A DNA stretch of 40,502 nt from Chitinophagales bacterium. GTDB lineage: Bacteria; Bacteroidota; Bacteroidia; Chitinophagales; CAIODY01. Every line of letters begins with the position of its first letter. The first letter of the stretch is position 1. A model generated the notes under the pieces. It did not search any database and was not told the origin of the DNA. It worked only from the letters and a program-made list of their open reading frames with translations. Position numbers and translations under genes: made by a program. This document shows, in pieces, positions 7,673 through 15,071 of this stretch. The DNA is taken from the NCBI GenBank assembly GCA_026461075.1, contig JAPJNH010000057.1:1-40502 (forward strand), read 5' to 3'.

Positions 7673-7680
7673 TATTCAAT

Positions 7681-7701
7681 CGTTACATCCGGGATGTAAC
7701 G
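7681..7701 (+). promoter_or_regulatory. Perfect hairpin between rplF and rplR
   Basis: The arms CGTTACATCC (7681-7690) and GGATGTAACG (7692-7701) are perfect reverse complements around one central G. As RNA this gives nine base pairs with a three-base loop. No T-run follows (next bases gcaaacaaaatag), so it is not an intrinsic terminator. It ends 16 nt before the rplR start. It could be a protein-binding site, a processing site or a stability element; the sequence alone does not say which. Confidence 0.6.
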
Positions 7702-7717
7702 GCAAACAAAATAGAAA

Positions 7718-12268: not shown

Positions 12269-12282
12269 AATTAGTTCAGGTC

Positions 12283-12340
12283 AAAATAATGTATTATTTT
12301 CGCGCGGCTTAAGGTTGCTCGGGATACATTTAAACCGTGC
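12283..12340 (+). promoter_or_regulatory. Two adjacent hairpins between rpsM and rpsK
   Basis: The first is a perfect AT inverted repeat, AAAATAAT (12283-12290) and ATTATTTT (12293-12300), separated by GT. The second pairs GCGCGG (12302-12307) with CCGTGC (12335-12340), including one G-U pair, and continues after one C/A mismatch with TTAAG (12309-12313) against TTTAA (12329-12333), leaving a 15-nt loop. Together they fill most of the 93-nt gap. The CG-rich run CGCGCGG stands out in AT-rich surroundings. In E. coli the alpha operon is controlled by S4 through structured mRNA at rpsM; a similar role here is inference. Confidence 0.5.
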
Positions 12341-12361
12341 TTAAAATTAAATTAAAAGACA

Positions 12362-12799: not shown

Positions 12800-13405
12800 A
12801 TGGCTAGATACACAGGACCAGCTTCCAAAATTGCTCGTAATTTTGGTGAACCTATTTTCGGTGCCGATAAAGCCTTCGATCGCAAGAATTATCCGAGCGG
12901 TATGCATGGTATGGCACGTAAGAAAAAGCAGCAGTCTGACTATGCTTTGCAATTGAAAGAAAAACAAAAGGCCAAATACACTTATGGCATTTTGGAACGT
13001 CAATTCCGCAAAATATTTGTCGAAGCTGCGCGTAAACATGGAGTAACAGGTGAAAACTTGTTGAAATTGTTAGAAGCACGCTTAGATAACACAGTATTCC
13101 GTTTAGGAATTGCTCCTACTCGTCGTGCTGCTCGTCAATTGGTTAGTCATAACCACATTGAGGTTAACGGTGTTAATACTAATTCTCCATCATTCACTTT
13201 GCGTAAAGGTGATGTTGTGACAGTTACGTTGAAAGCTCGTGAAATGGAGGTAATTCAAACTTCATTGCGTAACAAAGGAAAGAATTTCCCTTGGTTGCAA
13301 TGGAACGAAGATAAAATGGAGGGTACTTTCATCGCAATGCCTGAAAGAGATCAGATTCCTGAGAATATCAAGGAACAACTTATCGTTGAACTTTACTCTA
13401 AGTAA
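12800..13405 (+). CDS. rpsD: 30S ribosomal protein S4
   Basis: S4 (uS4), 201 residues, starts 30S assembly and is a translational repressor of the alpha operon in several bacteria. The N-terminus is [20 protein letters not shown], followed by [20 protein letters not shown]. The S4 RNA-binding domain is at about residues 92-150 with [20 protein letters not shown] and [20 protein letters not shown]. It is a type without the N-terminal CxxC zinc cluster. The 75-nt gap to rpoA contains a long two-part hairpin that could be a target of S4 (inference). Confidence 0.97.
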
Positions 13406-13410
13406 TCCAC

Positions 13411-13452
13411 TGATTAAACTTGATTTTGGATATTTCCAATCAATCTTAATCA
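13411..13452 (+). promoter_or_regulatory. Long hairpin between rpsD and rpoA
   Basis: The outer arms TGATTAA (13411-13417) and TTAATCA (13446-13452) pair perfectly. A 2x2 internal loop (AC / TC) follows, then TTGATT (13420-13425) with AATCAA (13438-13443). A two-base TT bulge is followed by GGA with TCC, closed by a TATT loop. This makes 16 base pairs in 42 nt. No T-run follows, so it does not look like a terminator. A pyrimidine-rich stretch (ctttccttcactttc) separates it from the rpoA start. Confidence 0.6.
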
Positions 13453-13480
13453 CTTTCCTTCACTTTCAATTAAATATAAA

Positions 13481-14473
13481 ATGGCTTTATTAAATTTCGT
13501 AAAACCAGATAAAATTATCCTAAACAAGGCAAACGACTTCGAAGGTACATTCGAATTCCGTCCATTAGAGCCTGGTTTTGGAGTAACGATAGGCAATGCT
13601 TTGCGTCGCGTATTGTTATCATCATTAGAAGGATATGCAATTACTAACATCAAAATCAGTGGTGTTGAGCATGAATTTTCTACGATTAAAGGTGTAATGG
13701 AAGACGTTACAGAAATCGTTTTGAATTTGAAGCAAGTGCGCTTGAAAAAAGTAATTGATACCGACCTTAGCTCTGAAAAAATCGTTTTAAGCATCAAAGG
13801 TAAAGAAGAATTACGTGCTGAAACTATTGGTAAACATACTACTAGTTTCATGGTAATGAATCCTGATTTGTTGTTATGTCGTATGGATCCTGCTACTAAT
13901 TTGAATATCGAATTAACGATTGAAAATGGTCGCGGTTATGTTCCTGCGGAAGATAACAAAAACAAAGAAGGTGCTTTAGGAACAATTGCAATAGATTCTA
14001 TTCATACTCCAATCAAGAATGTTAAATACGCTATTGAAAATACGCGTGTTGAACAAAAGACGGATTACGAAAAGTTGATTTTGGATGTTACTACTGACGG
14101 CACTATTCACCCTGAAGAGGCTGTTAAAGATGCTGCTAAAATCTTGATTCAACATTTGATGTTGATCAGCGATGAAAAAATCACTTTCGATGATTTCAGC
14201 GAGTCTGCTCACGAAGTAGTTGATGATCATGTTTTACACATGAGAAAACTATTGAAGACTCCACTTGAAGATTTAGATTTAAGTGTTCGTGCTTACAATT
14301 GCTTAAAAACTGCAAAGATTAATAACTTAAGTGAGTTGGTTAAGTTTGATCTTAATGATTTGTTGAAATTCCGTAACTTCGGTAAGAAGTCTTTGACTGA
14401 AATCGAAGCGATGGTACACGAAAAAGGTTTACACTTCGGTATGGACCTCAGCAAATACAAATTAGAAGATTAA
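13481..14473 (+). CDS. rpoA: DNA-directed RNA polymerase alpha subunit
   Basis: RpoA, 330 residues, dimerises to start RNA polymerase assembly. The N-terminal domain shows [20 protein letters not shown] and [20 protein letters not shown] near residues 25-65. The C-terminal domain begins at about residue 257 after a linker and contains [20 protein letters not shown] and [20 protein letters not shown], including the conserved arginine and asparagine used for UP-element and activator contact. Length is standard. It lies 75 nt after rpsD, with a hairpin in that gap, and 36 nt before rplQ. Confidence 0.98.
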
Positions 14474-15036: not shown

Positions 15037-15071
15037 AAAAAGCCCATTCGAAAGAATGGGCTTTTTGTTTT
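15037..15071. terminator. Bidirectional intrinsic terminator after rplQ
   Basis: Arms 15037-15049 (AAAAAGCCCATTC) and 15054-15066 (GAATGGGCTTTTT) are perfectly complementary over 13 bp with a GAAA tetraloop. A T-rich stretch follows on plus, and the A-run before it serves as the U-run on minus. It lies between the convergent genes rplQ (plus) and the acyl-CoA thioesterase (minus), so it can end both transcripts and closes the ribosomal supercluster. Confidence 0.92.

Follow-up and report, generated by a model that had tools for sequence, protein, structure and literature searches.

The window analysed here, the whole stretch of 40,502 nucleotides (contig C142), belongs to a Chitinophagales bacterium with few relatives at the family level and carries a ribosomal protein operon in which rpsD is followed by rpoA and rplQ. 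The rpsD gene ends at position 13405 and rpoA starts at 13481, leaving a gap of 75 nt (13406-13480). A hairpin occupies positions 13411-13452 of this gap, 5 bases past the rpsD stop codon and 28 bases ahead of rpoA. The features of the junction, and the terminator used for comparison, are as follows:

12800-13405, + strand: rpsD (ribosomal protein S4), upstream gene, 201 aa, from the open reading frame and homologues 61-99% identical in the same place.
13411-13417, + strand: 5' arm of the outer helix, TGATTAA, 7 bp, from the fold; identical in the sister species G005.
13420-13430, + strand: 5' arm of the upper stem, TTGAT-(TT bulge)-TGGA, from the fold; G005 has ATTTG-CC-TCGGA instead.
13431-13434, + strand: terminal loop TATT, from the fold; CAG in G005.
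13435-13443, + strand: 3' arm of the upper stem, TCCA-ATCAA, from the fold; TCCGA-A-CAAAT in G005.
13446-13452, + strand: 3' arm of the outer helix, TTAATCA, from the fold; identical in G005.
13453-13480, + strand: rpoA leader, unstructured, 28 nt, from the alignment; one substitution relative to G005, at position 13453.
13481-14473, + strand: rpoA (RNA polymerase alpha subunit), downstream gene, 330 aa, from the open reading frame and homologues.
15037-15066, + strand: canonical intrinsic terminator after rplQ (comparison); stem identical in G005.

The minimum free energy fold (-12.6 kcal/mol) reproduced the 16 pairs that the initial annotation had described as two helices with a 2x2 loop, a bulge and a tetraloop directly after rpsD and before rpoA, and that description was accurate. 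The pairs are distributed as 7+5+4, or as 7+6+3 with the bulge shifted. A 2x2 internal loop (AC/TC) separates the outer helix from the upper stem, whose helices TTGAT/ATCAA (5 bp, 6 if the bulge is shifted) and TGGA/TCCA (4 bp, or 3) flank a TT bulge. When the gap was folded with its coding flanks, the z score against dinucleotide shuffles was -2.6, with 4 of 200 shuffles equally good; the gap alone returned values of -4.3 to -5.1, which are approximate owing to the few shuffles used. The hairpin is real, and it is an ordinary-looking RNA stem-loop.

Its standing within its own genome was assessed on about 284 kb of sequence, where 28 same-strand gaps of 50-130 nt, delimited by simple and hence approximate ORF calls, were folded. 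Eleven of these gaps, rpsD-rpoA included, reached z <= -4. The other ten continued into runs of T in the usual intrinsic-terminator form, as in the example AAAAAGGC...GCCTTTTTT, and the rpsD-rpoA gap, with its A/U-rich stem followed by CUUUCCUUC, was the only one at this level without a T-tailed terminator form. The same operon holds two further hairpins lacking a T tail, in the rplF-rplR and rpsM-rpsK gaps. A search of the genome (G000) for a second copy found the hairpin in its own place only, the remaining matches being short and due to chance; a dispersed palindromic repeat of the REP type was ruled out on this basis. Rfam searches with gathering and loose thresholds returned chance matches only and no family for the hairpin.

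We then compared the junction with that of its relatives. Within the genus a complete gap is offered by one relative only, G005, which is also the nearest species with one (DNA identity 94.7% in rpsD and 93.7% in rpoA); the congener G004/L001 was left out because its contig stops 16 nt past the rpsD stop. The two gaps differ at 16 of 77 aligned columns while the genes are 93-95% identical, and 14 of these differences fall in the upper stem-loop. The outer helix is letter-identical and 27 of the 28 bases of the rpoA leader are the same. The upper stem-loop has been rewritten and yet still pairs, UUGAU-UU-UGGA[UAUU]UCCA-AUCAA in the window corresponding to AUUUG-CC-UCGGA[CAG]UCCGA-A-CAAAU in G005. 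The unpaired elements changed as well: G005 shows an internal loop UUA/C, a CC/A element and the loop CAG, against the 2x2 loop, UU bulge and UAUU of the window. The consensus fold of the two sequences had a z score of -5.5, and none of 500 column shuffles was as good. Permutation of the changed letters gave p=0.12 for the G005 letters and p=0.008 the other way round, while random mutation of the upper stem gave 0.024.

Of the two species of the sister genus, G001 forms its own hairpin at -12.3, weaker in statistical terms (z -1.8), and G003 folds weakly (-6.1, z 0.2), most of the stability being lost. When the pairs of the window were counted on a sequence-only alignment of four family members, 78% of the cells were paired and 7 pairs had changed on both sides; this share lay above 500 of 500 shuffles and every slid control. 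RNAalifold returned no consensus structure over the same four members. The view that the hairpin is more than chance was borne out by the z score of the fold and by the pairing retained despite sequence change in G005. Loss of pairing in close relatives, which the initial annotation had named as the observation that would speak against the claim, gave a mixed picture: the pairing was kept in G005, weaker in G001, essentially lost in G003, and missing from about half of the order, where the gaps are short. On this comparative evidence the pairing has good support inside the genus and partial support outside it.

The survey was extended to 80 clusters from Chitinophagales-order genomes, and a species-level collection supplied a further 80 rpsD neighbourhoods. 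In 38 of 78 order genomes the rpsD-rpoA gap held a hairpin of -8 kcal/mol or lower, typically 5 nt past the stop codon and 38 nt before rpoA; the genomes without it mostly have gaps of about 18-38 nt. Hairpins of different families share this position and not their sequence, and no single conserved RNA motif was found in the gap across the order. Within the whole ribosomal protein cluster, hairpins are most frequent in the two gaps on either side of rpoA, where they occur in 77/157 cases (49%) versus 213/1278 (17%) in the other gaps of the cluster (p=0.005, paired Wilcoxon test at family level, 14 families). If genomes are counted as independent, an assumption that does not hold, the p value would be about 4e-18, and on the same assumption the excess was smaller when only gaps of at least 40 nt were counted (73% vs 55%, p = 0.002). 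The hairpin had also been proposed to lie where ribosomal protein and RNA polymerase expression should differ; the abundance of hairpins on the flanks of rpoA fits such a boundary and is suggestive of it.

In another family, genus g16 together with L025 provided a second independent case of conserved flanks enclosing rewritten stems with pairs changed on both sides. Stems are replaced or disappear even within a genus. The shortest gap of genus g51 has 24 nt and no hairpin, the longest 141 nt with long palindromes; several of its gaps are hairpin-free and two consist of GGTGAATAGTGA-type repeats.

Two side observations concern the same gap. L212 and L214 carry long palindromes made of GGTGAATAGTGAGTGGTGAGTAG-type degenerate repeats, while their congeners have gaps of 24-38 nt without them. 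A Saprospiraceae clade (L003, L004, L005, L006, L010 and L011) has a strongly conserved long hairpin, CGGUUGG...CCAACCAUUUU, enclosed in a second helix; this element is conserved in sequence and its stems hardly vary, unlike the hairpin of the window.

The turnover within genera invites a reading in which the hairpin is a functionless, dispensable intergenic palindrome. Imperfect palindromes arise readily in the A/T-rich gaps of Bacteroidota, and when template switching during replication changes the two arms in a single step, the outcome mimics compensation. The rapid gain and loss seen in g51, the weak fold of G003 and a turnover that is independent of sequence all agree with this reading. 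Against it, the 28-nt leader and the outer helix are nearly unchanged while the rewritten upper stem still pairs, and hairpins are concentrated non-randomly around rpoA. We regard it as rather unlikely.

A site for pausing or partial termination, including Rho-dependent termination, which would lower transcription into rpoA-rplQ, was also considered. A plain intrinsic terminator was rejected, as the stem is A/T-rich, CTTTCCTTC lies behind it, the site was absent from the terminator scan and it is unlike the terminators of the genome, with their GC-rich stems and T runs. Across the order, at least six T in eight positions were found at the 3' end of 7/38 rpsD-rpoA hairpins versus 38/75 hairpins after rplQ, the real end of the operon. 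True terminator-like hairpins do occur in the rpsD-rpoA gap of some distant genomes (L009, L152 and L123), and internal terminators tune RNA polymerase genes in archaeal ribosomal operons (PMC10450193). The Methanococcus maripaludis case shares with the window a setting in which RNA polymerase genes within ribosomal operons need lower expression; it differs in that the archaeal termination sites were located by Term-seq, involve no hairpin and had their function tested by mutation (PMC10450193).

The layout of the operon also bears on this alternative. Because rplQ lies behind rpoA, termination before rpoA would starve rplQ, which is needed at ribosomal stoichiometry, and an internal promoter is not evident. 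The Bacteroidota-type -7 element TANNTTTG is absent from the rpsD-rpoA gap of the window, so an internal promoter for rpoA was rejected, and across the order the element has a density of 0.6 per kb in this gap, compared with 8.0 per kb in map-infA. Given this scarcity, rpoA and rplQ are probably transcribed by read-through from upstream. A partial termination site at the junction seems to us a distinctly improbable reading. As a separate observation, TANNTTTG is enriched across the order in the map-infA and rpsC-rplP gaps (8.0 and 5.4 per kb, vs 0-2 elsewhere), a distribution that suggests internal cluster promoters before infA and rplP.

The initial annotation had favoured a protein-binding RNA. 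A protein-binding autoregulatory element, bound by S4 after its own gene and controlling rpoA-rplQ, is very improbable: the hairpin adjoins rpsD, has an internal loop and a bulge, and Bacteroidia and Flavobacteria S4 leaders are themselves hairpins (PMC7247131), but in its upper part the loops and bulge have not one nucleotide in common with those of the sister species. Contact nucleotides should be kept, and since neither the 2x2 loop, the UU bulge nor the UAUU tetraloop is conserved, the protein-binding reading is unsupported. The S4 leaders described so far in Bacteroidia and Flavobacteria lie upstream of rpsD (PMC7247131), and the Rfam model RF03141 (S4-Flavobacteria), which matched upstream of rpsD in two Flavobacteria control genomes, gave no gathering-level match in the window. 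Identification as an S4 leader was rejected on these grounds, the hairpin lying after rpsD and remaining unmatched in Rfam even at the loose threshold. It resembles the known S4 leaders (RF03141 and the Bacteroidia S4 motif; PMC7247131) in being a small hairpin in the same operon and phylum, and differs from them in its position and in the lack of a match. The rpsK-rpsD gap is 30 nt long and unstructured, and the rpsM-rpsK gap of the window is a much better candidate for a leader.

This rpsM-rpsK gap (12269-12361, 93 nt, fold -16.5 kcal/mol) is identical to that of G005 at 93 of 93 bases, while the flanking genes differ by 5-7%, and is, for this genus, a strong leader candidate with an autoregulatory role over rpsK-rpsD-rpoA-rplQ. 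In other genomes the same gap contains a recurrent motif of the form P1 - (C/U)(G/A)GAU - P2 hairpin - (A)GGAG - P1, often followed by ACCUC before rpsK, with stem letters that differ in each genome. It was found mostly in family f17 (L111, L121, L123, L128, L133, L136, L138, L139, L150, L153, L155, L157 and L160); a scan of four of these loci (L111, L123, L136 and L139) gave no Rfam match, and the motif looks like an undescribed ribosomal-protein leader. The rplF-rplR gap of the window (7680-7703) holds a perfect 10-bp hairpin, ATCGTTACATCCGGGATGTAACGG, without a T tail; in the sister genus it reads ATCGTTGTTT...GGAACAACGG, with the same ends and paired changes inside. In family f14 (L127, L142, L149, L156, L158 and L159) this gap shows a recurrent UUGGG ... 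CACUAA in the closing helix just before rplR. Rfam returned no match in four of these loci (L127, L142, L149 and L156), and the motif may be a leader that serves the rplR-rpsE portion of the operon.

Returning to the rpsD-rpoA junction, the reading we prefer, with a probability of about 0.5, is that of an intercistronic mRNA stem-loop whose function would come from the stable stem and not from its letters. The features that a protein could read are not conserved while a stem is kept at the site, which argues for a function of the structure alone; the hairpin probably serves the mRNA as a structural spacer, not as a protein docking site. Such a stem-loop could act as a barrier to 3'->5' exonucleases, giving the upstream ribosomal protein mRNA segment a stable end, and/or could insulate the initiation of rpoA from ribosomes finishing rpsD; its placement right after the rpsD stop leaves the rpoA leader single-stranded. 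In either case a single transcript could yield unequal amounts of S4 and the alpha subunit. As a counterpoint, a stem that is A/U-rich and moderately stable is a modest exonuclease barrier. The loss of most of the stability in G003 and the short hairpin-free gap in about half of the order indicate that the element is dispensable.

By its anatomy, that of a stable stem-loop which lacks a terminator tail and lies between two genes of an operon, immediately 3' of the first, the hairpin can be grouped with intercistronic stabiliser or insulator stem-loops, an assignment made here from sequence and fold. In operons subject to selective RNA processing and stabilisation (SRPS), stem-loops placed behind particular genes determine how stable each segment is and in what stoichiometry it occurs (PMC8219983). 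These SRPS stem-loops also lie in operon-internal gaps directly behind one cistron, lack a terminator tail and have a proposed role in stability and stoichiometry; they differ in having been tied by differential RNA-seq to processed ends and transcript ratios, whereas that of the window is known from its sequence and is A/U-rich. In E. coli, a hairpin at the galE cistron junction blocks 3'->5' exonucleases and defines the 3' end of the upstream mRNA (PMC9239205). The galE hairpin, however, is GC-rich, is located within galT about 130 nt beyond the stop codon and comes after Rho-dependent termination, in contrast to the hairpin of the window, which stands in a true gap 5 nt from the rpsD stop codon.

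A cell generally requires more of its ribosomal proteins than of RNA polymerase. With rpoA in the middle of a ribosomal protein operon and rplQ behind it, a stem-loop that stabilises or insulates a segment would be a simple solution. In Bordetella, an excess of RpoA from a co-transcribed ribosomal protein operon disturbs gene expression (PMC7742992). The finding at this junction is a modest one, and the more useful leads are the order-wide excess of hairpins on the flanks of rpoA and the leader candidates elsewhere in the operon. Given the enrichment around rpoA over 14 families, the idea of a stabilising or insulating stem-loop can be tested directly on Chitinophagales RNA data that already exist, whether long-read or 3'-end. 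As a tentative generalisation, which we hold to be possible though doubtful, rpoA in the ribosomal protein operon of Chitinophagales/Saprospiraceae-like Bacteroidota may habitually have on both sides stem-loops that evolve fast, do not depend on sequence and uncouple the dosage of the alpha subunit from that of the ribosomal proteins, the stems being replaced and the pairing selected, and the hairpin of the window would be one instance.
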